33,578 nucleotides of DNA from Acidobacteriota bacterium (GTDB taxonomy: Bacteria; Acidobacteriota; Vicinamibacteria; Vicinamibacterales; UBA2999): the NCBI GenBank assembly GCA_021731095.1, contig JAKFYA010000022.1, forward strand, positions 1 to 33,578, given 5' to 3'. Positions 4,811 to 23,813 of this stretch are shown in pieces; position 1 is the first letter of the stretch; each line of letters begins with the position of its first letter. The notes beneath the pieces were generated by a model that worked only from the letters and a program-made list of their open reading frames with translations, did no database searches and had not been told where the DNA came from. A program made the translations under genes and the position numbers.

Positions 4811-5803
4811 TCAGGATCGGCTGAAGGTGAGGAGGGCCAGGGCTGAGCACAGGAGGGCAAACCCGTGAAGGACCAGCACCACCTGCCACTGCGTGTAGCC
4901 CAGTGCCAGGAGGCGATGATGCACGTGCCGCTGGTCGGGCTGGACCATCCGTCGAAGCGCGGCCAGGACCCCGCGTGTCGCGCCGTCTGGCGAGGTGGCG
5001 CCCAGACGACGACCCGCCACGATGGCCAGGTCAGCCAGTGGCAGTGCAAAGATGAGCAGTGGGACGGCGCCCGCCAGGACCGTCGTGCCCTTCTGCCAGC
5101 CGGTCATGGCTGTGACGGCCAGGATGAAGCCGATGACGAGGCTGCCGGCATCGCCCAGGAACACCGAGGCCGGGAAGATGTTGAAGGGCAGGAAGCCGGA
5201 GAGGGCCCCCGCCAGCGCGATGAGGAGGACCGCCTCGGGCGTGTGGTCGCGGGCCATCAGCACGGTGGCACACGTCGCGGCGGCAATGATGGCCAGGCCC
5301 GTAGCCAGCCCGTCCAGCCCGTCCATCAGGTTGAAGGCGTTGGTGACCGCGAGCACCCAGAGCCAGGTCACCAGGGGAGACAGGACGCCCAGCGCGTAAG
5401 TCGTGCCGAAGAGCGTGACATGGTTGATGGTGATCCCGGCACCGATGACCAGGGCGGTGGCACCCGTCTCCACGGCCAGCTTCAGCCAGGCTGGCAGGCT
5501 GGCCATGTCGTCTGCGGCGCCGACCGCGAACACCAGGGCCGCAGCGGCAATCAGGGGCACCATCGGGCCTGACCAGGCTCCCGCCCCTCCGGCTCCTGGC
5601 GGGTCCAGACAGACAAACAGGGCCACGGCCAGACCCGATGCGAGCACCACGGCCATGCCGCCGGTACGCGCCACCGCGACGCGGTGGACCTTTCGCGTTC
5701 CCGGCACATCCACCATGCCGGTGGCATGCGCCAGGTGCCGCATGAACGGGGTGAGCGCAGCCGCCAGACACGCCGCCACCACAAACAGCACCGCCAGATT
5801 CAC
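4811..5803 (-). CDS. Polyprenyl-phosphate sugar-1-phosphate transferase, WecA/MraY/TagO (ALG7/GPT) superfamily
   Basis: GTG start at 5803 (VNLAVLFVVAACLAAALTPFMRHLAHATGMVDVPGTRKVHRVAVARTGGMAVV); NAFNLMDGLDGLATGLA, FLPFNIFPASVFLGDAGSLVIGF and RHVHHRLL motifs; GTGA 4-bp overlap with upstream MurG-like gene. The longer 560-aa ORF in the track is an upstream over-extension. Confidence 0.9.
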   Translation of the reverse strand: MNLAVLFVVAACLAAALTPFMRHLAHATGMVDVPGTRKVHRVAVARTGGMAVVLASGLAVALFVCLDPPGAGGAGAWSGPMVPLIAAAALVFAVGAADDMASLPAWLKLAVETGATALVIGAGITINHVTLFGTTYALGVLSPLVTWLWVLAVTNAFNLMDGLDGLATGLAIIAAATCATVLMARDHTPEAVLLIALAGALSGFLPFNIFPASVFLGDAGSLVIGFILAVTAMTGWQKGTTVLAGAVPLLIFALPLADLAIVAGRRLGATSPDGATRGVLAALRRMVQPDQRHVHHRLLALGYTQWQVVLVLHGFALLCSALALLTFSRS

Positions 5804-6894
5804 CGGGCGTCTCCCAGCAGGCGTTCGCAGACCGCTACGACCGCGCCCGCAGCGCCAGGCAAGGCGGTACGTCGCGCGGCGTCGGCCGCCGCACGCCAGT
5901 TGGCTGGCCGCAGCAGGGTAGCCACCTGGTCGGCCACACGCGCCTCGTGCCAGTCGCGCTCCCGGATACTGATGGCCGCACCGGCCGCCACCATGGAGGC
6001 CGCGTTGTCCGCCTGATGGTCGTGCGCCGCGCTGGGCAAGGGTACCAGCAGCGCCGGTCGCCCGGCCAACGCCAGCTCGGCCACGGTCCCGGCACCGGCA
6101 CGCGCCACCACCAGGTCCGCCCAGGCGTACGCTGCTGCGGCGTCCTCGATGAACGGCGTCACGGTCGCAACCGTGCCGGCGTCGCGGTAGGCCTGCTCCA
6201 GCCGGATGGCGTCGCCGTCGGCCATCTGGTGTCGCACGTCCACACGGACCCCGAGGCGGGACAGGTCTCCGACCAGGGATGGCAGCCATCTCGCGAAGGA
6301 CGCACCATCGCGCGAACCTGACAGGACCAGCAGGTGCGCGGCACCTGGTGATGGCGGCGTCAGGGGCGTCGACACCAGCGCGTCGAGACTGGGTCGAACC
6401 GGCCAGCCGGTGACGGTCAGGTGGGGAGCCGCCAGCGATGCGCGGTCGAGCCACGGGCTGACACAGGCATGATCCACCACGTGCGCCAGCCACCGGTTCG
6501 CCAGGCCTGGCACGGCGTTGCCTTCATGAATCACCGTGGGACGGCCCAGCAGACGCGCGCCCAGGAGCACGGCACCCGTCGCGAAGCTGCCAAAGCCGAT
6601 CGCGAGCTGGATCCGGCGGTGCCTGAGGGCCCGGTGCGCCTCCGCGATACCGCGCCCGGTCTGTACTGCGGCGGCCGCCAGGCCCCATCCGGCGGCGCGG
6701 GCAATCGGTGCGGCCGAAATCCCTTCATAGGGCCACCCATGTCGCGCGGCCAGGGCCGACGCCAGTCCGTCCCGAGGGCCGAACAGCGTGCACTCGACCG
6801 TGCCGACATGGTGACGATAGGCGTCCGCCACCGCCAGCGCCGGGTAGAAATGTCCGGGTGTGTCACCGACGGCCAGTGCAATCCGGCGGGTCAT
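5800..6894 (-). CDS. MurG-like (GT28) UDP-sugar transferase; candidate functional equivalent of ALG13/ALG14
   Basis: MTRRIALAVGDTPGHFYPALAVADAYRHH; GSFATGAVLLGARLLGRPTVIHEGNAVPGLANRWLA; ADLVVARAGAGTVAELALAGRPALLVPLPSAAHDHQADNA, a MurG-type UDP-GlcNAc binding region. The canonical MurG GGTGGH loop is altered. Confidence 0.85.
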   Translation of the reverse strand: MTRRIALAVGDTPGHFYPALAVADAYRHHVGTVECTLFGPRDGLASALAARHGWPYEGISAAPIARAAGWGLAAAAVQTGRGIAEAHRALRHRRIQLAIGFGSFATGAVLLGARLLGRPTVIHEGNAVPGLANRWLAHVVDHACVSPWLDRASLAAPHLTVTGWPVRPSLDALVSTPLTPPSPGAAHLLVLSGSRDGASFARWLPSLVGDLSRLGVRVDVRHQMADGDAIRLEQAYRDAGTVATVTPFIEDAAAAYAWADLVVARAGAGTVAELALAGRPALLVPLPSAAHDHQADNAASMVAAGAAISIRERDWHEARVADQVATLLRPANWRAAADAARRTALPGAAGAVVAVCERLLGDAR

Positions 6895-6921: not shown

Positions 6922-8181
6922 ATGAGGGTCTCTATCGTGGTCCTGGGTGATCTGGGCCGCAGTCCCCGGATGGTGTATCACGCGCTTGCGCTGGCCGCAC
7001 GCGGTGTCTCCGTAGACCTGATTGGCTATGAGGGGAGCCTACCACGGGCGGTGGTTGGCGAGCCCCACATCACCTGTCACGTCCTGGGTGGGTCGGTCAC
7101 TCGCGGCCCAGAGTCAGCCGCCTCTGAACCCCGGCATCCCTGGCGTGCCCATGTGACCTGGCTGGCGCAGGCCGCGTCCCGCGCGCTCCGGCTCTGCTGG
7201 CATCTGCCTGTCGTCCTGCTGATCCGGACGCCACGGCCGGACGTGGTGCTGGTGCAGAGCCCGCCGGCGGTGCCGGTCCTCGCCATCGCCTGGCTGAGTG
7301 CCAGACTCCGCGCCGCGCGGCTCATCATCGACTGGCACAACCGCGGCAGCAGCCTGGTGGCGCTCCGTCTCCATCCGGGCCATCCGGTCGTCCGTCTGGT
7401 GGATGGCTGGGAGCGCTTCTGGGGTCGGCGGAGTGACGGGGGGCTCTGTGTCTCCGCTGCGCTGCAGGCGCATCTGACTGAAGGCGGGCTGGCTCGCGTC
7501 CACGTCTTCCGCGACAGACCGGCAGCGCGCTTCCGGCCGCTCTCCGCGGACGAGCGGGCGCCAGTGCAGGCGCGGGTGCTGGGCGCTGTCTGCGACCGTC
7601 TGGTCGTGGTGCCGAGCAGCTGGAGTCCGGATGACGACTTCGACCTGCTGCTCGCGGCGTTGAGCCACTTTGCGCAACGCGCGGACGACTGCATTCAGGC
7701 GGGCGCCTCGGTTCCGCCGGTCACCGTGGTGCTGACGGGAGATGGCCCGCTGCGAGCCAGGTACGAAGGCCGCTTTGACGCCCTGCAGTCCGACCAACTG
7801 CGCGTGCTGGTCCGCTGGTTCTCGCCCGACGACTACGCCGCGCTGCTGGGCACAGCCGACCTGGGCATCAGCGTGCACCGGTCTGCCTCGGGGCTCGACC
7901 TGCCGATGAAGGTGTGTGACCTGCTCGGCGCGGCCGTTCCCGTCTGCGCGCTCGACTATGGGCCGTGCCTGGCTGAACTGGCCAGGGCCGATGGCGGGTG
8001 CCTGCTGTTCCAGACCGCTGAGGACCTGGCGGCGCGGCTCGTCGGGCTACTCGGTGACGACGAGCCGTCACGCGCGCGGCTCGGCCACCTGCGAACTGCC
8101 GCGGCGGCCGCCTCCGCGCAGCGGTGGGAGGACGGGTGGGCCCAGGACGCCTGGCCCCTGTTGCACGACGCATCCCTGTAG
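6922..8181 (+). CDS. ALG1-like (GT33) glycosyltransferase, putative polyprenyl-PP-chitobiose beta-mannosyltransferase
   Basis: ATG at 6922; LGDLGRSPRMVYHALALA, IIDWHNRGSS, VVVPSSWSPDDDFDLLLAAL, WFSPDDYAALLGTADLGISVHRSASGLDLPMKVCDLLGAAVPVCALDY correspond along the whole protein to recalled eukaryotic ALG1 blocks. ORF 6421..8181 in the track is over-extended. Confidence 0.85.
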   Translation: MRVSIVVLGDLGRSPRMVYHALALAARGVSVDLIGYEGSLPRAVVGEPHITCHVLGGSVTRGPESAASEPRHPWRAHVTWLAQAASRALRLCWHLPVVLLIRTPRPDVVLVQSPPAVPVLAIAWLSARLRAARLIIDWHNRGSSLVALRLHPGHPVVRLVDGWERFWGRRSDGGLCVSAALQAHLTEGGLARVHVFRDRPAARFRPLSADERAPVQARVLGAVCDRLVVVPSSWSPDDDFDLLLAALSHFAQRADDCIQAGASVPPVTVVLTGDGPLRARYEGRFDALQSDQLRVLVRWFSPDDYAALLGTADLGISVHRSASGLDLPMKVCDLLGAAVPVCALDYGPCLAELARADGGCLLFQTAEDLAARLVGLLGDDEPSRARLGHLRTAAAAASAQRWEDGWAQDAWPLLHDASL

Positions 8182-8196
8182 AATCGCAGGGCTCTC

Positions 8197-10002
8197 ATGC
8201 GTCTTCCCCGCGACTATTACGTCAGCGTCCGTCGCCGCTTCGCCCTGCTCACGCCGCAGGAACGATGGTGGTGGCTCTCGTGCCTTCCGCTCGGTGTGGT
8301 GACGGCGGCGCTCGAGACCGTGAGTGGCCTGTTGATCTTCGCGTTGATGGGAACGCTGCTGGGCTCGTCGGGTGGTCGTATCGGGGCGGTGCTCGGAAGC
8401 CTGCTGTCGGGCGTCGGCATCGGCGTCAGCGCCAGGAGTCTCACCGCGTTGTGCGCCGCCATCTACATCGGCAAGAACGTGGTCTGGATGGTGGCCACCT
8501 TCTACCGGTCGCGGGTCATGGCCGCCCTGGGCGCCAGCCTGTCAGACCGCTTCATCCGGGCCTATCTGACGGCGCCGTACGCCTTCCACCTCCGCCGGAA
8601 CTACACGGACACCGCCTATGGCTTCACCAGCGGCGTGCCGGCCATCGTGCACATGCTCGAAGCTTTGGTGACCCTGGTGACCGAGTTGCTCGTGGTCGCC
8701 GGGCTGTCCGTGGTGCTGATGCGCGTGGCTCTGGTCGAGACGCTGACCGCTGCGGGCATCATCGCCCTGTCGGTGCTGGCCTTTTCGTGGCTCACAAAGG
8801 GACGATTCCAGGTGCTCGGCGAGCGCCACGCGACACTCGGTGGGGAACTCGACCGACAGGTGCTCCAGGCCCTGGCCGCCTTCCGTGAAGTCACGGTCTT
8901 TGGCCGGGTCCTCACGTTCGCAAGGCGGATTACTGAGGTGGATGCCAGGCGCGTCGCCGCCGCCATGGACTTTGCCGCGCTTGAGGCCGCTCCACGGCTC
9001 TGGACCGAGACGGCCTTCATCCTCGGGCTGGCCGGTCTCGTCCTGACGCTCGACGTCTCCTCGCTCTCGCTCCAGACCGTCCTTCCGTTTATCGGGCTGT
9101 ATGCCTATGCAGGATTCAGGCTCATCCCCGCCGGCCATCGGCTGTCGTATCAACTCAACCGGATCCGGTTCGAGGTGGCGGCCAGCGAGGCGCTGTGTCG
9201 GGATATGGAGCGTCTGGTCCCTGTCGCAGTCGCCAAGCCGACGGGTCCGGCGGAGCGGCGGAGCCCGCACGCATGGCGGTCCCTGACCCTCACGGGCGTA
9301 TCGTTCGCCTATGAATCGACGGATCGCCTGGTGTTGTCCGATATCAGCCTGTCTGTGGCGCAAGGAGACTGTCTCGCGGTCGTGGGCGCCACGGGCGCCG
9401 GCAAGTCCACGCTGGCCGATCTGATCATGGGGCTGCTGGTGCCGACATCAGGCGCGGTCCTGGTGGATGGTGTGTCCATTCACGACGACCTGCCGTCCTG
9501 GCAACGCCATATCGGGTACGTGCCACAGGCGCCCTATCTGCTCGATGACACGCTCGGACGGAATATCGCCTTTGGTGTGGTGGACGAGGAGGTGGATGCG
9601 GCGGCGCTCGCGGCTGCCGTGGAGGCGGCCCAGCTTGGGTCGCTCGTGGCCTCGCTGCCAGACGGACTGAATACCGTCATCGGTGACCGCGGGACCCGGC
9701 TCTCCGGCGGTGAACGGCAGCGGGTCTCGATTGCCCGTGCCCTCTATCGGGACGCCAGCCTCCTGGTGCTGGATGAGGCCACCTCAGCGCTCGATCCCGG
9801 TACCGAACGCGCTCTCACCGAGGCCATTGATGACTTGCGGGGACGCACGACGCTCCTCGTGATTGCGCATCGTCTCAGCACGATCGAACGGGCAGACCGC
9901 CTGATCGTCCTCAACGAGGGTCGCATCGAGGCGGTGGGCACCTACGCAGAACTTCGGGACACCAGCGCCGTCTTCCGGGCCATCTCGGCTCTCGACGCCT
10001 GA
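8197..10002 (+). CDS. ABC transporter with fused permease and ATPase, PglK/MsbA-like lipid-linked oligosaccharide flippase candidate
   Basis: 601 aa; N-terminal membrane domain with YAYAGFRLIPAGHRL; Walker A GATGAGKS, IGYVPQAPYLLDDTLGRNIAFG, LSGGERQRVSIARALY, LLVLDEATSALD. Confidence 0.88.
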   Translation: MRLPRDYYVSVRRRFALLTPQERWWWLSCLPLGVVTAALETVSGLLIFALMGTLLGSSGGRIGAVLGSLLSGVGIGVSARSLTALCAAIYIGKNVVWMVATFYRSRVMAALGASLSDRFIRAYLTAPYAFHLRRNYTDTAYGFTSGVPAIVHMLEALVTLVTELLVVAGLSVVLMRVALVETLTAAGIIALSVLAFSWLTKGRFQVLGERHATLGGELDRQVLQALAAFREVTVFGRVLTFARRITEVDARRVAAAMDFAALEAAPRLWTETAFILGLAGLVLTLDVSSLSLQTVLPFIGLYAYAGFRLIPAGHRLSYQLNRIRFEVAASEALCRDMERLVPVAVAKPTGPAERRSPHAWRSLTLTGVSFAYESTDRLVLSDISLSVAQGDCLAVVGATGAGKSTLADLIMGLLVPTSGAVLVDGVSIHDDLPSWQRHIGYVPQAPYLLDDTLGRNIAFGVVDEEVDAAALAAAVEAAQLGSLVASLPDGLNTVIGDRGTRLSGGERQRVSIARALYRDASLLVLDEATSALDPGTERALTEAIDDLRGRTTLLVIAHRLSTIERADRLIVLNEGRIEAVGTYAELRDTSAVFRAISALDA

Positions 10003-10033
10003 GCCGCGCTCACCCGACTGCGTTCGGGGCTCA
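10000..10033. terminator. Possible bidirectional terminator hairpin between convergent genes
   Basis: TGAGCC (10000-10005) / GGCTCA (10028-10033) with inner CCGA (10014-10017) / TCGG (10024-10027); unpaired asymmetric segment, no U-tract. Confidence 0.3.
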
Positions 10034-11029
10034 ACGGGGCCACAGCCGTCGCCCCAGCTGCCTGAGGCCCGGGCTGGCCACTGGGCGCAGCGCCCGTGCG
10101 CACGTTCGCCTGACGGCGGCAGCCCAGCCAGGCCGCGTGTCCGGGTAGGCCTCGAAAGTAAGGTCGCGGGGCGGCCTCGGGGACAGGTCTGGCGTGCTGA
10201 GCCACTGGTGAAGCTCCCGATGCATGAAGGGAAACAACTGATGCTCGGTGAGAATGCGCCGCCGCGCGTCCGCAATGGCCTCCAGGCGGGTTGACCAGGT
10301 ATCGCTCATCGCGATGGCACGCACCTGCTCCGGTGCCTCGGGGTCACGGATGTCAATGCGGATGAAGGCCTCTGCCGGAATCCACCGCTCCAGTGCCGTG
10401 CACCCGTAATAGAGCGGCAGCGTCCAGGCCAGCAGGGCGTCGACGACCTTCTCCGTCCAGTAGTACGGGTTGACGTGGTTCTCGATGGCCAGGGTGTACC
10501 GGTACGGCGCCAGACCGTCCCACTTGTCCGGAATCTCGCGGATGCCGCGGCCATACAGGTCCAGTTCGACGCGCGCGGCCTGGAGTCGGGTGAGAAACCG
10601 GCGCCGGTCGTCATGGCCGGGTACCAGGGCCGCCGTGCTGGTGATCCAGGAGAGCCCGCGCGGCTTGTCTGGACAGGGCATGGCGATCAGGTCGTCATAG
10701 GTCCGTGTGACCCGCCAGGGCAACGCGCCGTGTGAGGCCACATACCGCGGGCCGAGCCTGGTGGGGTCCTGCATGTAGATGCGCGAATAGGCCGGCAGGC
10801 CCGCATGGAGGCCGAGGCGATGCGCGACAGGAGGTTCTCCGATGATGGCCCAGACACGGTCCGGTGAGCACCGGACGCGCACCGGTTCGGCGGCGTGGTT
10901 CAGGACCAGGACGTGGTCGCAGACCTCGACCGGCTCTTCCGTGAACGTGATGTCCTGCCACTGGAACGAGCCGCCCGGCGTCTGGCGACCGAGATCGGGA
11001 TAGTCCCATTTGATGATCCGGACCAGCAT
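10031..11029 (-). CDS. Glycosyltransferase family 10 (fucosyltransferase-like)
   Basis: 332 aa; C-terminal KWDGLAPYRYTLAIENHVNPYYWTEKVVDALLAWTLPLYYGCTALERWIPAEAFIRIDI matches the GT10 fucosyltransferase core pattern. Confidence 0.85.
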   Translation of the reverse strand: MLVRIIKWDYPDLGRQTPGGSFQWQDITFTEEPVEVCDHVLVLNHAAEPVRVRCSPDRVWAIIGEPPVAHRLGLHAGLPAYSRIYMQDPTRLGPRYVASHGALPWRVTRTYDDLIAMPCPDKPRGLSWITSTAALVPGHDDRRRFLTRLQAARVELDLYGRGIREIPDKWDGLAPYRYTLAIENHVNPYYWTEKVVDALLAWTLPLYYGCTALERWIPAEAFIRIDIRDPEAPEQVRAIAMSDTWSTRLEAIADARRRILTEHQLFPFMHRELHQWLSTPDLSPRPPRDLTFEAYPDTRPGWAAAVRRTCARALRPVASPGLRQLGRRLWPR

Positions 11030-11077: not shown

Positions 11078-12121
11078 CTACCGGTCCGTTGACGGGCGCG
11101 TGGGCATGTCTCCGTCGAGCGCGTAGGCCGCCGACAGCTGACGCGCGACGGCCGTGGCGATTTGCGGCGGCATCCAGACGCCAGGGGGGCCGACGTGCAC
11201 CTGATCACCGAAGGCGTCCATCGGCAGATAGAGGATGGGCTCGGCAAAGACGCCGTCGGCGTCCCTCCACGGCCGGCTTGCGGGCGACGGCGAGGCGAGC
11301 ACGCGCAAGGTGCCGCCCCGTGCCCGACACAGCGCCTGCATGCGCGCCAGGTAATGCTCGGCTACTGGGGCCAGCACGACGTCCGTCACCCGGTCCGGCC
11401 CCGGGAAGTGAACCGTTGCGAAGCGGCCGCCGGCAAGCAGACTGATCCATCGCAGCAGTGGCTCGGCTGGCACCTCCGGTTCGGCCGGGGCCACCGTAGG
11501 TGCGATGGTCAGGTCCCGCCTGGAGAACAGAGGGCGTACGAGCTGATACGGCACCTGCCGCCAGGCGCTGTTGATGGCCATGGTGCCGGGGAGGAGCCAG
11601 CGTCCGACGTGGATGGCCGTCAACCGGACATCACGCTTGACCGAGAAGACCTCGGCCACGTGCCGCCGGGTGTGGAAGAGGCTGCAGAAGAAGTCGCTGG
11701 CCACTGGCGGCTCGAGGTTCACCTGGAGTGTCTCTGGACGCACCAGGAGAACCGCGTCCTGTGCCCGCGGACATTGCCGGAAGGTCTCCTCAAGCAGGTA
11801 GTAACTGCCGGCGATGGAGAGGCCCCCGTTCGAGGTGAGAAAGCGCACGCGGCCATTGGGCTCCGAGCCGGGAGGAAAGAACTGGCGGGCCACGCTGTCG
11901 CCGAGATACACGCGTTCGACTAGTGGACCAGGCTGACTGGCCAGAGCCGGCAACCGGTAGACATCACGTTCGAGCAGACTCTGTCCGCCGGTCGCTTCGA
12001 TCCGTCGCGTGGCCTGGGCATCAAAGATCGCCAGCAGGACGGCGAGTCCGACGCCGAAGAGGACGCACGTGCGCAGGAAGCGGCGCAGGGCGACAGGGGT
12101 GGTGACGGATGGGTCGGACAG
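11078..12121 (-). CDS. Membrane-anchored SGNH-like protein (paralogue of 19365..20333); putative glycan O-acetylation/esterase partner
   Basis: GDSVARQFF (SGNH block I-like) and a C-terminal DQVHVGPPG (D..H, block V-like). Track ORF starts at a TTG (11953), but reading upstream in frame gives LRRFLRTCVLFGVGLAVLLAIFDAQATRRIEATGGQSLLERDVY, homologous to the paralogue's N-terminus; the extended start is non-ATG and uncertain (CTG at 12121 used here). Confidence 0.65.
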   Translation of the reverse strand: MSDPSVTTPVALRRFLRTCVLFGVGLAVLLAIFDAQATRRIEATGGQSLLERDVYRLPALASQPGPLVERVYLGDSVARQFFPPGSEPNGRVRFLTSNGGLSIAGSYYLLEETFRQCPRAQDAVLLVRPETLQVNLEPPVASDFFCSLFHTRRHVAEVFSVKRDVRLTAIHVGRWLLPGTMAINSAWRQVPYQLVRPLFSRRDLTIAPTVAPAEPEVPAEPLLRWISLLAGGRFATVHFPGPDRVTDVVLAPVAEHYLARMQALCRARGGTLRVLASPSPASRPWRDADGVFAEPILYLPMDAFGDQVHVGPPGVWMPPQIATAVARQLSAAYALDGDMPTRPSTDR

Positions 12122-13386: not shown

Positions 13387-14303
13387 TCCAGCCTGGGTGC
13401 CCAGTACGAGCCCGGCCTGATGCCCAGCCTTCGCCCCAGCAGCAGCACAGCACCACCAGCGTTCCGCACCAGCGCGCCAGCCCGGCGCCGGTCTGCCTGA
13501 CAGAACCCGGATGTCAGGTCGGGCGTCTCGGCGCCAGCCGCCCTGGCGCGCAGCCGGGCCGCCGAGCAGACGCGACAGGGACAGGGCCTGTCCTCGGTGA
13601 TCGTGGTGGCAAACGCGGCATTGGGTACCGCCTCCGGACGGGTCAGCGCGTGCAGCCGGAGGTGCACGCGTGTGGCGTACCCGGTTGCGGTGTCGGCCGG
13701 CATCCGGATGGGAAGGGCAAAGCGCAGCAGCCGTCGCGCCGCGTCGCGCGTGAGGAAGTAGGCATAGGCGCCCTGCGCGTACTCGACCGTCCGTGCCACG
13801 CGCACGCCTGGCGCCAGCGCCTCGCTGGCAAACGTGGTCAGCGCGCCGTGATCATGGGTGACCGGCGCGCCAGGGATCCACGGGCGGCGGCTGGAGTGGT
13901 GTCCGACGAACACCAGATCAAAGCGTCCGCTCGACGCCCCCAGCGCTCGCAGGAGTACCGGCAGACGCGGGCTCAGGTCCACGTCGTCTTCGAGGATCAA
14001 CGCGCCCGCGTGGGGACCCGCCGCCAGCCGCTCCCAGAGCGCGGCGTGGCTGAGGGCGCAGCCGATCTCGCCGCCGGTCAGGCGTCGCCCGAGCCAGGGT
14101 TGAACCTGGAGTGCCTGGTTGCCAGCCAGCTGCCGCACGGCCTCGTCGTCCAGTCCGTGGCCGTTGATCGCCTCGACCCGCTCGAACGGGACCCCGAGGC
14201 GCGTCAGCTGGGTCGCCATGTGCTGCATCCGTGCAGTCGAGGCGGCCAGATTCAGCACCCAGACGGGCAGGTCAGAACTGGAAATAGATGAAGCTGCGTC
14301 CAC
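13383..14303 (-). CDS. Glycosyltransferase family 25 (LPS-type) protein
   Basis: LPVWVLNLAASTARMQHMATQLTRLGVPFERVEAINGHGL; LTGGEIGCALSHAALWERLAAGPHAGALILEDDVDLSP is characteristic of GT25. GTG start overlaps the MBOAT gene end. Confidence 0.88.
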   Translation of the reverse strand: MDAASSISSSDLPVWVLNLAASTARMQHMATQLTRLGVPFERVEAINGHGLDDEAVRQLAGNQALQVQPWLGRRLTGGEIGCALSHAALWERLAAGPHAGALILEDDVDLSPRLPVLLRALGASSGRFDLVFVGHHSSRRPWIPGAPVTHDHGALTTFASEALAPGVRVARTVEYAQGAYAYFLTRDAARRLLRFALPIRMPADTATGYATRVHLRLHALTRPEAVPNAAFATTITEDRPCPCRVCSAARLRARAAGAETPDLTSGFCQADRRRAGALVRNAGGAVLLLGRRLGIRPGSYWAPRLD

Positions 14304-15732
14304 CGAGATCTCCCATCCAGAGAATGACGAGGATCAGCGCGTAGTAGGCCGGCCAGCGCACCCAGACTGGTGCGGCGTCCCAGCGCCGCACGGCCTCGTG
14401 TCGCGCACCCAGGTGCTCCACGCCCAGCATCAGGGCGATCAGCAGGCCGGCAATCAGGAGGTGCCCTTCGCGTGAGAGCGAGAACATGCGGAGGATATGG
14501 TCGGGATCCGGGCAGGCAAACAGGGGGCCCGTGCCAAGGCGGGCCAGCAGGGCCGCCGCGTCGCCGAGGGAGGCGGCCCTGAAGAAGAGCCATGCGAACG
14601 CGACGAGCTGAAAGGTGACGACCATGGCCAGACCCCTGCGCACCGCTGGATGCCGGTCAAGGCCCGTGAGGCCCGCCACGCGGTCACGCGTGGTCGAGGT
14701 CAGCCGCGCGACGACCAGATAGAGGCCGTGCAGCGCTCCCCAGACCACATAGGTCCAGTTGGCGCCGTGCCAGAGGCCGCTGAGGACAAACACGACCGCG
14801 ACGTTGCGGAGGGATGCCAGTGGTCCGACCCGACTGCCTCCCAGAGGAATGTAGACATAGTCGCGGAACCAGGACGACAGTGAGATGTGCCAGCGGCGCC
14901 AGAACTCCTGCACCGAGCGCGACTCGTAGGGACGATCGAAGTTGAGCCCGAGGTCAATGCCCAGCACGCGGGCCGCACCGATGGCCGTATCGGAATAGCC
15001 GGAGAAGTCGCAGTAGATCTGGATGGCAAAGAGCCAGGTGGCCACCACGACCCAGCCGCCGCCGTAGTCGCCCGGTGTCTTGTAGACCAGATCCACGATG
15101 AGCGCCATGCGGTCTGCGATCACCATCTTCTTGAAGAGGCCCCAGAGCATCAGGCGAAGGCCGTCAAAGACGCGGTCAGGGTCGAAGCGCTGGGGCGTCC
15201 GGAATTGCGGCAGCAGATGCGCGGGGCGCTCGATCGGTCCGGCGACGAGCTGAGGATAGAACAGCACGTACAAGGCATAGAGGCCGAGGTGACGTTCTGC
15301 GGGGAACCGGCGCCGGTAGACCTCGATGGTGTAGGCCATCGACTGGAACGTGTGGAAGGAGAGGCCGACGGGCAGGACCCAGGCGAGCACGGTCAGGTCG
15401 TAGTGCCAGTGGAGCGCCGTGGCCACAGTCCGGATGTTCTCGTTGAAGAACGCGGCGTACTTGAACGCGCCAAGGATGCCCAGGTTGGCGGCGAGACTCA
15501 CGACGAGCAGCAGGCGCCGCCGGGTGCCCTCTGCCGCCTCGATCAGGCGAGCGGCCGTGTAGTCGACCAGGATCACACCCAGCAGGACGAGCAGGAAGCG
15601 CGGGATGAAGCTGGCGTAGAAGAGCGCGCTCACCGCCAGCAACATGGCCCAGCGGACGCGGTGCGGCAGGACGAAGTACAGCGCGGTGGTGACCGGGAAG
15701 AAGATCAGGAACGAGAGCGAATTGAAGAGCAT
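14272..15732 (-). CDS. MBOAT family O-acyltransferase (AlgI/PatA-like)
   Basis: 486 aa; MLFNSLSFLIFFPVTTALYFVLPHRVRW; CDFSGYSDTAIGAARVLGIDLGLNFDRPYESRSVQEFWRRWHISLSSWFRDYVYIPLGGSR; GLWHGANWTYVVWGALHG (catalytic His region). Confidence 0.95.
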   Translation of the reverse strand: MLFNSLSFLIFFPVTTALYFVLPHRVRWAMLLAVSALFYASFIPRFLLVLLGVILVDYTAARLIEAAEGTRRRLLLVVSLAANLGILGAFKYAAFFNENIRTVATALHWHYDLTVLAWVLPVGLSFHTFQSMAYTIEVYRRRFPAERHLGLYALYVLFYPQLVAGPIERPAHLLPQFRTPQRFDPDRVFDGLRLMLWGLFKKMVIADRMALIVDLVYKTPGDYGGGWVVVATWLFAIQIYCDFSGYSDTAIGAARVLGIDLGLNFDRPYESRSVQEFWRRWHISLSSWFRDYVYIPLGGSRVGPLASLRNVAVVFVLSGLWHGANWTYVVWGALHGLYLVVARLTSTTRDRVAGLTGLDRHPAVRRGLAMVVTFQLVAFAWLFFRAASLGDAAALLARLGTGPLFACPDPDHILRMFSLSREGHLLIAGLLIALMLGVEHLGARHEAVRRWDAAPVWVRWPAYYALILVILWMGDLGGRSFIYFQF

Positions 15733-17019: not shown

Positions 17020-17793
17020 ATGACCGACCCGGCGCGACTTTGCATCGTCACCAGCGTGGCGCCCCATCGCGTGGTCGCCCAGCAGCGGGCGGTGGCGAGC
17101 TGGAAGCGGCTCGGTGCTGAGGTGCTGTCCCTGAATGCGGCAGACGAGCTCCGTCTCCTGGCTCCGCAGTTTCCCGAGGTGCAATTCCTGCAGGCTGCGC
17201 GTGATGCGCAGACGTTTCTGGGGCGGCCGTGCGTGTTCATCCGTGACCTGATGCAGGCGGCTGCCGGGAGCGGCGCGACCGTGTGCGGTGTGGTGAACAG
17301 TGACATCGAGCTGATCGATGCGCCGGGCCTGCGCGCGATGCTGGACGCGCAGACGCGCGACGCCCTCGTCATTGGCGCCCGCGTCGACTACGTACAGGGC
17401 CAGCGCGAGCAGGGCACCGTCTATCCCCTCGGGTACGACTTCTGCTTCTTCAGTCCTGATGCAGTGGCGGTAGTGCCGGACGAACCGTACTGTCTCGGCG
17501 CGCCCTGGTGGGACTACTGGCTGCCGGCCGTCTGGCTGGACGCGGGGCGCCCGTTGAGGCGTCTCGTGTCACAGGTGGCCTGGCATGAGCGGCACCCGGC
17601 GGCCTACCGCCCATCGCACTGGATGATGTATGGCGGACTGATGTCCGGGCGATTGATTGACGTCGGGCGGCGGCCGTCACTCTTCCCCAGGTCGATCAAT
17701 GGGGGGAAGGATCTGATCGCAAGAACAGAGCGGCTGGCGCGCGCGTTACAGGAGCAAATCGAGCGTCGGGCCGAAACCCTCATCTGGCCATGA
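17020..17793 (+). CDS. Uncharacterised protein, possibly GT-A-fold glycosyltransferase-like
   Basis: ATG at 17020 (MTDPARLCIVTSVAPHRVVAQQRAVASWKRLGAEVLSLNAADE); VVNSDIELID has a possible D-x-E motif; YDFCFFSPDAV and LGAPWWDYWLP. Function inferred from context. Confidence 0.6.
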   Translation: MTDPARLCIVTSVAPHRVVAQQRAVASWKRLGAEVLSLNAADELRLLAPQFPEVQFLQAARDAQTFLGRPCVFIRDLMQAAAGSGATVCGVVNSDIELIDAPGLRAMLDAQTRDALVIGARVDYVQGQREQGTVYPLGYDFCFFSPDAVAVVPDEPYCLGAPWWDYWLPAVWLDAGRPLRRLVSQVAWHERHPAAYRPSHWMMYGGLMSGRLIDVGRRPSLFPRSINGGKDLIARTERLARALQEQIERRAETLIWP

Positions 17794-19316
17794 GTGTGAC
17801 GGAGGGGCCCGTTCGCCGACGCGCGACGGCCGCTATGGTGATGGCGGCAATCTGCCTGTTGCCGCTGGCTGGTCTGAAGGCGGTGTCTCTGGGACTGGTT
17901 GCCACGCGGGACATCCGGCAGCTTGTCGTGCCGTGGATGGGAGGCCCGGCGACATCGGTTGCGGGCCTGATGCTGGTTGGGCTGATGGCCACGTGTGTCC
18001 CGCTCGCGCTTGGCGCGCCGCTCGCACGGACGTCCTGGCCCGCCCGCTGGTGGGCGGGCTTCCTGGCGGCCGGTACGCTGCTCGTGGGTCTGTATGCCGC
18101 GGGCGTGGGACGTGGCCTCAGCGTGTCCATCGGCGCCGTGGCAGCGGCCGGGGTCGCTGCGGCGTGGGTGCGCAGGGACGGTTGGCCGGTGGCGCGTTCC
18201 CGCGTCGAGCCTGGACACGTACTTCTGGGTGCGGTGATGGCCGGGTTGCTGGTGGCCGCGATGGCGCACACGCTGGCGGGACCCACCATGGCCTGGGACG
18301 CCGTGGCTGTCTGGTTGCCAAAGGTGCGTGGCCTTGCGTCGGGGGCTTCGCTGGCGGAGCTGGCGCGCCCGACCTATCCCCCGCTGGGTGCAATGGTCTG
18401 GTCCGTGGCGGCATCGGTCGGCGGAAGTGAAGCAGCAGGTCGTGGCGTGCTGGCGGCGGCGGCCCTCGTGGCGCTGCTGGGGCTGACCGACCTGGTGCCG
18501 GGCCGGTTGACACTGGCGATCAGCGTGCTCGTCTCGGCCGTGGCCGTCGTGTTCTTCGGCCTCGACGCGTTTACCAATGGTTATCAGGACGCGCTGCTGG
18601 CGGCGGCGGCTGGCATGAGCGCCGTGGCGCTGATCGTGTCGTTCGACCAGGCCACTGACGCCGTGTCACGGTGCCGGCATGCGGCACGTGGCCTGGCGGC
18701 CGCGGGCGCACTGGGGCTCATCAAGAGCGAGGGGGCCGTCTTCGGCGCGTGTCTCATGCTGGCCTATCTCCTCGTGTCACTGGCCTGGACTGCACGCGGG
18801 GACTGGCTCGGCCTGTTGCGCGCCCTCCGCCTTCCGCTCGCGGGCTATGCCGGTGTCGGACTTCTCTGGCCCGTCGCTTTGCTGGTGCATGGCTTTCCTG
18901 TATTCGAGCGACAGGAGGGCACGTTCTCGGCGGCTGGTCTGCTGGCCGTGCCGTGGCGCCTCGCCGATCGTCTTCCGACCATCGCGTCAGCCATGGCGGC
19001 ACTGCTGGGAGACGGGAGGCGCCTGACGCTGCTTGCGGCCGTGGCCCTGGCCGCGAGCGCCGCCGTGCCTGGCCTCTGGCGGCATGGCGCTCCACGAGCA
19101 CATCGGGCGGTGCAGTTTCTCGGAGTGGTCAGCCTGTTCCATCTGCTGTCTGTGATCGTGATGTTTCTGGCGACGGAGGCCCCACTGGCCTGGCATCTCG
19201 ACACCGCACTCCTGCGCCTGTTGCTGCACCTGCGGTGGATCGTGGCGGCTATCGTGGTCGTGGTCGGTGTGGAGGTCATCCGCATGGCCGGAGGCGAGGC
19301 GTCCTCACGCCGCTGA
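17790..19316 (+). CDS. Polytopic membrane protein, putative GT-C-type glycosyltransferase
   Basis: 508 aa with many hydrophobic segments; AWDAVAVWLPKVRGLASGASLAELARPTYPPLGAMVW resembles the WDA..W..K....YPPL pattern of bacterial GT-C-like proteins; ATGA overlap with 17020..17793. Confidence 0.6.
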   Translation: MSVTEGPVRRRATAAMVMAAICLLPLAGLKAVSLGLVATRDIRQLVVPWMGGPATSVAGLMLVGLMATCVPLALGAPLARTSWPARWWAGFLAAGTLLVGLYAAGVGRGLSVSIGAVAAAGVAAAWVRRDGWPVARSRVEPGHVLLGAVMAGLLVAAMAHTLAGPTMAWDAVAVWLPKVRGLASGASLAELARPTYPPLGAMVWSVAASVGGSEAAGRGVLAAAALVALLGLTDLVPGRLTLAISVLVSAVAVVFFGLDAFTNGYQDALLAAAAGMSAVALIVSFDQATDAVSRCRHAARGLAAAGALGLIKSEGAVFGACLMLAYLLVSLAWTARGDWLGLLRALRLPLAGYAGVGLLWPVALLVHGFPVFERQEGTFSAAGLLAVPWRLADRLPTIASAMAALLGDGRRLTLLAAVALAASAAVPGLWRHGAPRAHRAVQFLGVVSLFHLLSVIVMFLATEAPLAWHLDTALLRLLLHLRWIVAAIVVVVGVEVIRMAGGEASSRR

Positions 19317-19364: not shown

Positions 19365-20333
19365 TCACCGGCTCGATGGAAGCCCGGACGGCGTGATGAG
19401 TCTGGCGGGATGGCCTGGCGCTTCGCAGGCCCCATCGGCGGGTTCAGTGGCGAGCGGCAAGGCGGCGAGGAGTCCGTACTGTGCGGCGTAGGCCCTGGCG
19501 ATGCCGGTTCCCAGGCATCCCCTGGCGCCCTGGCCTGCAGCGCCGACATGGATACCGTCCCCCAGCGCATCGTGGTTCACATACAGCAGCTCTGCATCGA
19601 AGTGCCGCATCGGGTCGGTCCAACGCCGGTCATCGGGCAGAGGTGCCGCGAGCACGCGCACCGAGCCGCCATGGCTCCGGGCCAGGTCACGCAACCGAGC
19701 GAGATAGTGCCGTCCTACCAGAGATAACCTGACAGTCCCCACGGTGTCTGCCGGCACCCGGGCGAATGGATCCATCGCCAGGCGTGTGTCGAGACTGCGT
19801 GGCGGTTGTCGCCACGCCGCATTGGTGGCCAGCAGGCCTGGCATCAGCCACCGGGCCACCTGGGGGAGAGTGATAGCCGGATTGTGCTGAAGCCACCAGA
19901 CCTCGGCCATCTGGGCCGGGGTGTGGAAGAAGCCGCTGAAGTAGGTGACCGCCGAGGCAGCATCGAGCGTGCCTCGCAGCGTTTCAGGACGGCAGATGAC
20001 GACGATGTCCCGTGCGCGCGGACATGCCCGGAACGCGTCCTCAGCCAGGTAGTAGAAGCCCGCCATCGTGATGGCGGCATTGGTCGTGAGGAAGCGGACC
20101 TGCCGGCTCGGCTCTCGTCCGGTCGGAAAGAACTGGCGCGCCACGCTGTCGCCGATGATCAGCTGGGTGACCGAGGTATCAGGCGTGCGGGCGTGGGTCA
20201 GTGCCGTGTAGACCTCACTGCCGATGAGGTTGCGACCTCCCGCGCCGTCAATCCGGGCCCGCAGGCCTCTGTCGACGGTGGCGACGAGCAACACGAGCGT
20301 CAGGATGAAGCGCGTCGCGGTCCACGTGGTCAC
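19365..20333 (-). CDS. Membrane-anchored SGNH-like protein (paralogue of 11078..12121)
   Basis: GTG start at 20333 (VTTWTATRFILTLVLLVATVDRG) gives an N-terminal TM; IIGDSVARQFFPTGREPSRQVRFLTTNAAITMAGFYYLAEDAFRACPRARDIVVICRPETL; DGIHVGAAG near the C-terminus. Confidence 0.7.
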   Translation of the reverse strand: MTTWTATRFILTLVLLVATVDRGLRARIDGAGGRNLIGSEVYTALTHARTPDTSVTQLIIGDSVARQFFPTGREPSRQVRFLTTNAAITMAGFYYLAEDAFRACPRARDIVVICRPETLRGTLDAASAVTYFSGFFHTPAQMAEVWWLQHNPAITLPQVARWLMPGLLATNAAWRQPPRSLDTRLAMDPFARVPADTVGTVRLSLVGRHYLARLRDLARSHGGSVRVLAAPLPDDRRWTDPMRHFDAELLYVNHDALGDGIHVGAAGQGARGCLGTGIARAYAAQYGLLAALPLATEPADGACEAPGHPARLITPSGLPSSR

Positions 20334-20355
20334 GTGCGGTATCCTACCGCTCCTC

Positions 20356-21603
20356 ATGGACACGCCGGGCCGCAGGCTCACCATCGCCCTCCTGCATCTC
20401 GACCTCGGCTTCGGTGGGGCTGAGCGGCTCATGCTTGACGCCGCGCTGGAGCTGGGGGCGCTCGGCCACCGGACCGCGCTGTTCACCAGTGCCATGAATC
20501 CGGCCCGGACCTTTGACGACGCGACGAACGGTTGTGTGGACGTACGCGTCCGGGTGTCCCGGTTACCCGCGGCTATCGCACGTCGCGTGCGGGTGCCGTG
20601 TGCCGTGGTCAGGATGGCCGGACTGGCTGCGGCGGCCCGGCGTGAGCTGGCGCCCGACCTGGTGCTGTGCGACCTGGTGCCGCAGGCGATCGCCGCTGTG
20701 CGTCGTCTCGCGCGGGCACCGGTCCTCTTCTATTGCCACTACCCCGACGCGTTGCTGGCGCCGCCAGGCGGTGTGGCCTATCGCCTGTATCGCTGGGGAC
20801 TCGACGCGCTGGAACGGCAGGGCATGGGATGCGCGGACGGACTGGCCACCAACAGCCAGTTCACCAGGCGTGCCATGGGTCTGCAGATGCCGCGCCTCGC
20901 GGCTGACGCCGTCCCGGTGGTCTATCCCGGCGTCGACCTGATGCGCTTCGGGCAGCTGCCGCCCGTGCCCGAGGCCTGGTCCGACGGTGACGAGGTGGTC
21001 GTGGCGTCGGTGGGACGTTTCCACCCCGACAAGGATCATCCGCTCGCCGTGTCCGCATTCGCCGCCCTTCTGCGGCAAGTCCCTGACACGCTCCGGCGGC
21101 GGCTACGCCTCGTGATCAGCGGGGGCCTCGATGCCACCAGACCCGAAGAGCAACAGGTGCGCGCCGCCCTGGCCGAGCGCATTCGTGCCTACGGGCTCGG
21201 CGCCCAGGTGGCTCTGCTCGTGTCGCCGACGGATGCGGCGCAGCGGGAGCTGATGGCTCGCGCGTCACTGGTCCTGCACACGGCACCGGCCGAGCACTTC
21301 GGGATGAGCCCGGTTGAGGCGATGGCGGCCGGGCGTCCCGTGGTGGCCGTCGCCCGCGGGGGACTGCTGGAAACGATTCGTGATGGCGAGACCGGCTTTC
21401 TCCGAGAGCCGACGGCAGAGGCCCTGGCAGGCGCGCTGGCCACCGCGTGCGCCGAGCCGGCGATGGTGGTTCGCATGGGACGACAGGCACGCGTGGATGC
21501 GCAGGTCCGCTTCAGCCGGCAGCGCTTCGGCCAGCAGCTGCACGAGTCGGCGCTGGCCGCGTTCGACCGTGGTGCCACAGGCCACCGGCCTTACGGCGTG
21601 TAG
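20356..21603 (+). CDS. ALG2-like GT4 glycosyltransferase (putative alpha-1,3/1,6-mannosyltransferase)
   Basis: ATG at 20356 (MDTPGRRLTIALLHLDLGFGGAERLMLDAALELGALGH); VLCDLVPQAIAAVRRLARAPVLFYCHYPDALL; ADGLATNSQFTRRAM; VYPGVDLMRF; HFGMSPVEAMAAGRPVVAVARGGLLETIRDGETGFL. Blocks correspond to recalled eukaryotic ALG2. Confidence 0.85.
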   Translation: MDTPGRRLTIALLHLDLGFGGAERLMLDAALELGALGHRTALFTSAMNPARTFDDATNGCVDVRVRVSRLPAAIARRVRVPCAVVRMAGLAAAARRELAPDLVLCDLVPQAIAAVRRLARAPVLFYCHYPDALLAPPGGVAYRLYRWGLDALERQGMGCADGLATNSQFTRRAMGLQMPRLAADAVPVVYPGVDLMRFGQLPPVPEAWSDGDEVVVASVGRFHPDKDHPLAVSAFAALLRQVPDTLRRRLRLVISGGLDATRPEEQQVRAALAERIRAYGLGAQVALLVSPTDAAQRELMARASLVLHTAPAEHFGMSPVEAMAAGRPVVAVARGGLLETIRDGETGFLREPTAEALAGALATACAEPAMVVRMGRQARVDAQVRFSRQRFGQQLHESALAAFDRGATGHRPYGV

Positions 21604-23813
21604 GCGAAGACCCGGACGAGGGGCGGCCCACCGGGGCGGGTGCTTTCGTCATGGACAGGCTGGAAGCGGACCAGCGCATCGAGCGGGACCGCCGACTCTC
21701 CAGGCTCCAGCCCGACCAGGGCGTGCCTGCCTGGACCACGGGACCGGAGCTGCGCCTCGGCCGCTTCGTAGGTGGCGTAGCGATCCAGTCTGGTGATCTC
21801 TTTGTAGGTGCGGCCGTCACGACCGGTTCGCTCCACCCAAGTCACCACCCAGGAGCTGTGGCGAGGCTGGACGGCCCGACCGGCAAAGGTCTGGAGGTGG
21901 ACCGCCATCGACCGGTAGTACGCCGGATGGAAGACCCAGGTGCGGACCAGCGTGCCTCCGCCGGTCTTCTGGTACATCGGCTCGGCAAAGTCCGCCGCGC
22001 TCAGACCGACGAGTGCGGGCATGCCGAGGAGTCGCCCGCGGAGGCGGCCGTCGGCGCCGTCGCTGGTCCAGCGCATGGCCATGTCGTCATCGACCATGAC
22101 GTACCGCGCGCGCTTGGCGTCCATCCACGCATGGGCCGCCACCGGCGTGACTGACGTGAAGAAGGCGGCCGCCTGGTCGGCGCCCTCCTGGGTGCCGTTC
22201 GACATGGGGACCCGATGCGCCAGTGCGGTGATCCAGTAGCCTTGGTCCCAAAAGGCCATCACGCTGTACTGTGCCCGTGGCATCGCGTCGGCGTCGTACC
22301 GCGCCAGGTACAGGTCTCCCTGAGGAAACGGCTCGGGTGAGTGCGTGCGCAGCCATGTCAGGGCCTGCCACCAGGCCGGGGTCGGCCCTGAATCCCGACT
22401 CGCCGTGGCGACGGCTTCCGGCAACGTTGGCGCGACGAGCACGGCCAGCGCGAGCGGAGCGCCCAGCAGGTGCCAGCGTGAGGGTCTGGCCCGGGCTGTC
22501 CACCAGGCGAGGACGCCGGCGGCCGCGGCACCGGTGAAGAGGGCGAGCATGGGTGCCAGGTAGTAGCCGAAGCGCGTCGCCTTGAAGGTCGCGGCCAGGA
22601 CCCAGAACAGCCAGACCCCGAGCAGGAGCCTGTCTGGCTCTCTTCGTCGCCAGGCACGCCACGAGACCGTGGCAGCGGCAGGAATTCCCAGCAGGAATGG
22701 CGCGCCAAACATCGACAGGGGCGCGGTCAGGGATAGCCGGTCTCCCGGCCAGAGCAGTGGCCGCAGCTCGAGAATGGACGAAGGGGCACCGCCCGGGCGC
22801 AGCCGGGCGAGGTCGACGAGCCAGTGACGACCCAGGTCCGGCATGGCCAGCGCGATGAGTCCACAGCCGGCCACGCCCAGTCCCAGGGGGAGCACCAAGA
22901 CGGTGGCGCGTGGCCACCCGCGGCGCGCAGTCTGGTCCGCGAGGGCGACGAGCAGGGCGGCGAACAGGGCCACTGCGACGAGGGACGAGACCTGGAGGCC
23001 CCATCGATCGAGCTGGCGGGGCTGGAAGGCGAGCACAAGTGTCAGCGCTGACAGACCGGTCCTGCTCACGCCAAGGCCCAGCACCCGTACGTCGGCCCAG
23101 GCTGGCGCCTGGCGCCAGGCCCAGGTCAGGACCCAGACGGCCAGGGCGCCCAGCAGAAAGGGCGCGCTGGTCCAGGAGAGGTAGTAGGCGCCCAGGCCAC
23201 ACCCGGCGAGCCACCACGGGATGGCCCGGGTCGGGTCCGTCACGGCGCGACAGAGAGCCAACAGCGTAGCCTCCACCAGCACCACCTCCAGGACGTGGTG
23301 GTCGGTGAATCCAAGCTGGGTCCGTTCAAGGAAGGGCCCAGGCATCAGGGCCATCAGCGCGGCGGTGAACAGGCCGGCCTGTCGGCCGAACACCTGTCGA
23401 CCCAGCAGGTAGCCCAGGCACACCGCGACGACCGCCAGCACAGGGGGGGCCAGGGCCGCCACGGCCTCTACCGTGCCCGTGGCCGGATGGCCGAGTCCAA
23501 TCGCCAGGGCCGCCAGGGCGACCAGAAGGTCGAACAGGGGGGCGATCGCGACATGTTGCCCGTCGATCAGGGCATAGGGGTCAACTGTCAGCCGGTGGGG
23601 GAAGTTGGCCACCAGATGGGTGACCGCCCGGAGGTGGTACCAGCCGTCATCCTGAAACCGGACCCAGCTCCCCCCCATAACCCGGTCCCAGGGCAGCCAG
23701 ACCCGGAGCGCCAGTGCGGCGCTGCACAGGGCGAGCAGGGCGAACCAGGTGCCGGACGACCTCCCGTCCGCGCCGCTCGGGCTCGGGCTCGGGCTTTCAG
23801 CCGGGGACGACAT
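21591..23813 (-). CDS. STT3/AglB/PglB-family oligosaccharyltransferase (GT66)
   Basis: 740 aa; first-loop acidic motif FQDDGWYHLRAV (codons near 23638-23657), second loop GFTDHHVLE (23286-23312), candidate SVSE/TIxE-type motif SSILELRPL (22761-22781), and FWDQGYWI (WDQGYWI at 22230-22250) equivalent to WWDxG, followed by a C-terminal soluble domain. Confidence 0.9.
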   Translation of the reverse strand: MSSPAESPSPSPSGADGRSSGTWFALLALCSAALALRVWLPWDRVMGGSWVRFQDDGWYHLRAVTHLVANFPHRLTVDPYALIDGQHVAIAPLFDLLVALAALAIGLGHPATGTVEAVAALAPPVLAVVAVCLGYLLGRQVFGRQAGLFTAALMALMPGPFLERTQLGFTDHHVLEVVLVEATLLALCRAVTDPTRAIPWWLAGCGLGAYYLSWTSAPFLLGALAVWVLTWAWRQAPAWADVRVLGLGVSRTGLSALTLVLAFQPRQLDRWGLQVSSLVAVALFAALLVALADQTARRGWPRATVLVLPLGLGVAGCGLIALAMPDLGRHWLVDLARLRPGGAPSSILELRPLLWPGDRLSLTAPLSMFGAPFLLGIPAAATVSWRAWRRREPDRLLLGVWLFWVLAATFKATRFGYYLAPMLALFTGAAAAGVLAWWTARARPSRWHLLGAPLALAVLVAPTLPEAVATASRDSGPTPAWWQALTWLRTHSPEPFPQGDLYLARYDADAMPRAQYSVMAFWDQGYWITALAHRVPMSNGTQEGADQAAAFFTSVTPVAAHAWMDAKRARYVMVDDDMAMRWTSDGADGRLRGRLLGMPALVGLSAADFAEPMYQKTGGGTLVRTWVFHPAYYRSMAVHLQTFAGRAVQPRHSSWVVTWVERTGRDGRTYKEITRLDRYATYEAAEAQLRSRGPGRHALVGLEPGESAVPLDALVRFQPVHDESTRPGGPPLVRVFAYTP

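Follow-up and report, generated by a model that had tools for sequence, protein, structure and literature searches.

In the making of human and yeast glycoproteins, ALG1 attaches the first mannose of the sugar tree; the Campylobacter Pgl system is formed by PglC/A/J/H/I, the flippase PglK and PglB. As a kind of pathway, N-glycosylation is already known, and what is new here is a whole ALG-like cassette together with its spread, in which a single cluster unites the gene of a bacterial ALG1-like family with ALG2-like, ALG11-like, chitobiose-type and STT3 genes. The main phylogenomic study was unable to identify which prokaryotic proteins are most closely related to Alg1, and it considered the protein a possible eukaryotic innovation (Lombard 2016, PMC4973528); no report of a bacterial or of an archaeal ALG1 was found in the open-access literature searched. 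Since bacterial relatives of ALG1 had not been pinned down before, the family described here, a strong candidate for the missing prokaryotic relative, bears on the source of the eukaryotic pathway.

The DNA analyzed, hereafter the window, comprises 33,578 nucleotides from the genome of a soil-type Acidobacteriota bacterium of the order Vicinamibacterales (contig JAKFYA010000022.1). At positions 6922..8181 of its forward strand lies an open reading frame with an ATG at 6922, a stop ending at 8181 and no internal stops, its GC content by codon position (0.78/0.53/0.82) showing the bias typical of the adjoining genes. The predicted product is an ALG1-like (GT33-type) mannosyltransferase of 419 aa. 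In full-length blastp comparisons it displayed 34% identity over 449 aa to human ALG1 (2e-79) and 30% over 425 aa to yeast ALG1 (1e-68), and the other glycosyltransferases of the window gave nothing significant against either. The eukaryotic comparison sequences were provisional versions entered by hand, human and yeast supplying the only two eukaryotic ALG1; a control against published data, covering three human proteins, showed agreement at three patient-variant positions for ALG1 (Q50, S258, A360), at five positions and a peptide for ALG11, and at G347 for ALG2. Across 19 bacterial homologues, 54 columns are conserved in at least 18, and 41 of them are identical in human and yeast ALG1. The signature blocks GD[LV]GRSPRM, [IV]DWHN, SWTxDED, TGxGPLR and SSSGLDLPMK are present, and the four conserved blocks on which the initial annotation had relied all occur, in the order it gave; in view of the 41 shared columns, chance does not account for them.

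A profile built from the bacterial family recovered human ALG1 at 7e-129 and yeast ALG1 at 7e-111; the first protein outside ALG1 followed at 0.006. Reciprocally, a profile of human and yeast ALG1 run against 616 proteins returned exactly the bacterial ALG1-like ones (2e-109 to 6e-46), none of the rest falling below 0.2, so that full-length homology to eukaryotic ALG1 exceeds that to any GT4 family in both directions. Bacterial and eukaryotic ALG1 also formed one clade in the tree (100/99), apart from ALG2, ALG11 and other GT4 proteins. Thus, the assignment of this reading frame to a eukaryote-like ALG1 homologue, proposed in the initial annotation, holds by blastp, reciprocal profiles and phylogeny, as does its view that the likeness goes beyond generic GT4 similarity, the reciprocal profiles separating ALG1 from every GT4 present; the outcome it had named as evidence against itself, a GT4 family other than ALG1 as the top profile match, did not appear. 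The gene is in this way supported as encoding a putative bacterial orthologue of eukaryotic ALG1.

The catalytic region points in the same direction. The GT4 E-x7-E motif is absent, its first E being replaced by the SGLDLPMK block; the ALG1 form in its place reads S-x-S-G-L-D-L-P-M-K-x-x-D, and the conserved K of GT4 gives way to the SWTxDED block. Replacement of both the E-x7-E of retaining GT4 enzymes and this K fits the expectation for an inverting beta-mannosyltransferase. An AlphaFold model shows a complete GT-B fold (pLDDT 91), whose nearest solved folds are those of BshA, MshA, PglA and PimA/PimB' (PimB' and PimA with GDP-Man); a sequence search against the PDB gave no homologue, and no ALG1 structure was found there. 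With the GT4 enzymes PimA and PimB' the protein shares the GT-B fold and, presumably, the GDP-Man donor, but it lacks their retaining E-x7-E and is only 14-17% identical to them in structural alignment. The alternative that a generic GT4 enzyme was mistaken for ALG1 on accidental motif similarity is rejected as having next to no probability: the sole Pfam match is Glyco_transf_4, below threshold, and the GT4 fold is common to both, yet in each direction more than 40 orders of magnitude of E-value separate ALG1 from the rest in the reciprocal profile searches, the ALG1 clade is distinct and the GT4 catalytic motif is missing. No NCBIfam match was obtained. Eukaryotic ALG1 (CAZy GT33, chitobiosyldiphosphodolichol beta-mannosyltransferase) resembles it over the full length, in all signature blocks and in having no E-x7-E, the bacterial protein differing in its location in a bacterial gene cluster, in a carrier that is presumably undecaprenol rather than dolichol, and in being anchor-free. 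It begins at the first Rossmann strand, equivalent to human ALG1 residue 35 onward, without the N-terminal transmembrane anchor, a feature of the eukaryotic ER form that is not among the sequence-defining traits of GT33.

Around this gene, most of a lipid-linked oligosaccharide pathway can be recognized, a setting that goes beyond the initial annotation. A PglK/MsbA-type ABC flippase gene (8197..10002, forward strand; MsbA 4e-84 and PglK 6e-60, both under the curated cut-offs) begins 15 bases downstream, a gap that suggests one transcript for both. Divergent from this pair, and overlapping each other by 4 bases, are the reverse-strand genes for a WecA/ALG7-like polyprenyl-phosphate GlcNAc-1-phosphate transferase (4811..5803; Pfam Glycos_transf_4 1e-35, TIGR02380 wecA 2e-32, the latter below cut-off) and for a MurG-like GT28, proposed as the second-GlcNAc transferase in the role of ALG13/14 (5800..6894; TIGR01133 9e-61, below cut-off). 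The latter does not behave as an orthologue of canonical MurG, which this genome encodes elsewhere (on C75): its equivalog score stays under the cut-off, and it belongs to a clade (100/100) made up of the MurG-like cassette copies, from which the canonical MurG proteins encoded in the same genomes are separate. This separation speaks for a dedicated role. About 10 kb beyond the ALG1-flippase pair, an ALG2-like GT4 mannosyltransferase gene (20356..21603, forward; 34.5% over 400 aa to hand-entered human ALG2, 2e-62) converges with one for an STT3/AglB-type single-subunit oligosaccharyltransferase (21591..23813, reverse; 740 aa). The former product groups with human ALG2 (97/97), apart from ALG11 and other GT4. 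The STT3 protein exceeds the curated cut-offs of PF22627 and PF02516 (STT3 N-terminal domain and AglB core), matches the archaeal-type TIGR04154 (archaeo_STT3) at 6e-113, below its 450-bit cut-off, and carries the motifs DDGWYH, DHH and FWDQGYW; its catalytic block is FWDQG, versus WWDYG in most relatives (L066, L072, L067, L085, L040, L079). An ALG11-like gene was not found in the window, every other cassette part being there. A GT10 (fucosyltransferase-type) protein (10031..11029, reverse; PF00852 1e-10) might act with a GDP-sugar at a later glycan step, hinting at fucose on the glycan.

The likeliest function of the ALG1-like protein would be that of a GDP-Man:GlcNAc2-PP-undecaprenol beta-1,4-mannosyltransferase for a eukaryote-type N-glycan core. 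The WecA/ALG7-like enzyme would form GlcNAc-PP-undecaprenol, to which the cassette MurG-like GT28 would add the second GlcNAc, giving chitobiose; the ALG1-like enzyme would then add one beta-1,4-mannose from GDP-mannose by inversion, and the ALG2-like protein, in relatives also the ALG11-like one, further mannoses. The PglK-type ABC protein would flip the lipid-linked product, and STT3 would transfer the glycan to asparagine of exported proteins. We infer every reaction of this scheme, as well as its acceptor, linkages, undecaprenol carrier and N-linkage, from genomic evidence; in hand are the ALG1 and ALG2 homologies, the enzyme families, the recurrence of the gene set, the co-occurrence with STT3 outside one family (f3) and GDP-mannose 4,6-dehydratase (Gmd). 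The latter exceeds its curated cut-off both in the genome of the window and in the majority of the relatives tested, implying a GDP-mannose pool. Relatives encode GMPPB-like (~35% identical to hand-entered human GMPPB) or ManC proteins, and a GDP-mannose pyrophosphorylase was not seen in the 81% complete genome that carries the window.

Such a pathway would resemble Campylobacter Pgl in its cytoplasmic assembly of a lipid-linked glycan, its ABC flippase and its single-subunit STT3-type transferase, and would differ in using ALG7-, MurG-, ALG1- and ALG2-like enzymes instead of PglC/A/J/H/I and an STT3 nearest to TIGR04154. With archaeal AglB pathways, including that of the Sulfolobus chitobiose enzyme Agl24 (PMC8993221), it would share an STT3/AglB relative and a chitobiose step performed by a MurG-like GT-B enzyme; however, neither Agl24 nor Alg14/13 is close to MurG (PMC8993221), whereas the cassette enzyme is a GT28 near it.

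Related genes were not restricted to this genome. A profile scan of GTDB detected 48 loci with an ALG1-like gene, mostly in Acidobacteriota and also in Rokubacteria, while a single-protein scan of GTDB contigs found none; by record title the gene also occurs in Myxococcota, Planctomycetota, Gemmatimonadota and Proteobacteria, phylum counts being approximate since some depositor taxon names look wrong. ALG1-like relatives were absent from the viral contigs and plasmids searched. In the window's order, 36 of 162 genomes carry the gene at E <1e-40, separated by a wide gap from ordinary GT4 matches at ~1e-5. Outside family f3, cassettes with WecA/ALG7-like, MurG-like GT28, ALG2-like, ALG11-like, PglK/MsbA-type flippase and STT3 genes recur: locus L066 holds flippase, ALG11-, ALG7-, MurG- and ALG1-like, STT3 and ALG2-like genes within ~10 kb, and L135 has ALG2-, ALG11-, ALG7-, MurG- and ALG1-like genes plus STT3. 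The cultured isolate Luteitalea sp. TBR-22, which has a closed genome and belongs to another family of the order, presents a compact version with adjacent ALG1, MurG-like, ALG7-like and STT3 genes, making the pathway testable. ALG2-like neighbors are 34-45% identical to hand-entered human ALG2 (39-45% in relatives, with a maximum of 45% over 403 aa); ALG11-like proteins are weaker matches (28% over 256 aa to hand-entered human ALG11) and group with human ALG11 (97/94). Proteins of 927-973 aa with an STT3 domain adjoin the cassette at L040 (3189-5972 and 6044-8833, in tandem), L041 (5938-8859) and L079 (5990-8809), and appear to be a second oligosaccharyltransferase type used with ALG1.

In the window's family, STT3 was found in 11 of 12 genomes with ALG1 and in 0 of 31 without it (Fisher p 2e-9, a test that ignores kinship), and across the order minus f3 in 13/14 against 1/121 (p 4e-16, likewise ignoring shared descent). 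That the protein is a bacterial ALG1 orthologue serving N-glycosylation through a lipid-linked oligosaccharide pathway is the reading we consider probable. Counting against it are the patterns of family f3 and genus g2 described below, the GDP-mannose pyrophosphorylase not found in the incomplete genome, the FWDQG block of the window's STT3 and the window's lack of an ALG11-like gene. A true ALG1 homologue might, instead, have kept fold and donor and act on another acceptor, for an envelope polysaccharide, a glycolipid or an O-glycan rather than an N-glycan core. Family f3 lends itself to this, since 22 of its 27 genomes have ALG1, and in these neither a convincing STT3 (protein and HMM searches) nor an extra cassette-type MurG-like gene, nor the cassette itself, was found; so does the sister genus g2, where ALG1, ALG7- and ALG11-like genes and STT3 are present and an extra MurG-like gene was not found, indicating that the chitobiose step is not constant. 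GT10, GT25, MBOAT and more GT4 genes in the window region also resemble envelope polysaccharide synthesis. Nonetheless, outside f3 most of the genomes tested combine ALG1 with an STT3 or STT3-domain protein, and ALG2-like, ALG7-like and flippase genes are found repeatedly alongside ALG1. Action on another acceptor is possible above all in f3, and as a general account we hold it unlikely, though not to a degree that would make it surprising. Within f3, the ALG1-like gene of L045 (9938-11266) stands amid genes whose translations read as xanthine dehydrogenase-, allantoinase- and dihydropyrimidinase-like (purine/pyrimidine catabolism); L039, L048, L070 and L078 have the gene without STT3, and several of the L045 neighbors recur there.

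Regarding its origin, contamination of the metagenome bin with eukaryotic DNA might be suspected from a fragmented, metagenome-type assembly (3.6 Mb, 490 contigs, 81% complete, 5.3% contamination). Considering that (i) the same contig encodes bacterial L9, DnaB, alanine racemase, RadA and PRPP synthetase, (ii) ALG1-like genes occur in dozens of separate assemblies and in the isolate's closed genome, and (iii) the gene is intronless and clustered, this explanation is rejected as having practically no likelihood. Human and yeast ALG1 branch within the bacterial set beside L046 (93/93; 86/87 in a larger tree), near Rokubacteria and deltaproteobacterial sequences, in a tree whose rooting on ALG2/ALG11 is weak (3.5 changes per column on the joining branch). 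With two hand-entered eukaryotic sequences and this very long outgroup branch, any direction of transfer read from the tree would be tentative. The bacterial genes could be gifts from a eukaryote, and the resemblance would then be uninformative on the origin of ALG1; bacterial ALG1 is indeed as similar to human ALG1 (35% identity, 281 bits for L017) as the human protein is to the yeast one (~35%, 259 bits). Against this, bacterial ALG1 covers a wider range than the eukaryotic pair, its deep branches reaching several phyla and human and yeast ALG1 falling inside it, and the gene clusters are of bacterial style, containing a MurG-type GT28 and an ABC flippase, not eukaryotic ALG13/14 and RFT1. 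Judged as history, apart from the functional readings, a gift from eukaryotes seems improbable. Tentative, and rather less likely than not, is the broader proposal that a eukaryote-type Man1-5GlcNAc2 lipid-linked oligosaccharide is built in several bacterial phyla by ALG1, ALG2 and ALG11 orthologues and attached to asparagine by STT3, and that eukaryotes took ALG1, perhaps also ALG2, from such bacteria.

If the cassette is active, lipid-linked N-glycosylation would extend to phyla where it was previously not known, the origin of the eukaryotic pathway would become testable, and anchor-free ALG1 and ALG2 would be available for structure work and glycoengineering.

Some further features were recorded. 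L051, L059, L061 and L063 are titled Bifidobacterium, Acidimicrobiia or Cyanobacteria, and their ALG1 loci group with Acidobacteriota, these records being probably misnamed. Within the glycan region of the window, a small protein (17020-17793, forward) and one with multiple membrane spans (17790-19316, forward) had no family match. Two reverse-strand genes (11078-11953 and 19365-20357), also without Pfam match, look paralogous and share a GDSVARQFFP block; with the MBOAT gene (14272-15732) they may make up a pair for O-acylation of the glycan.
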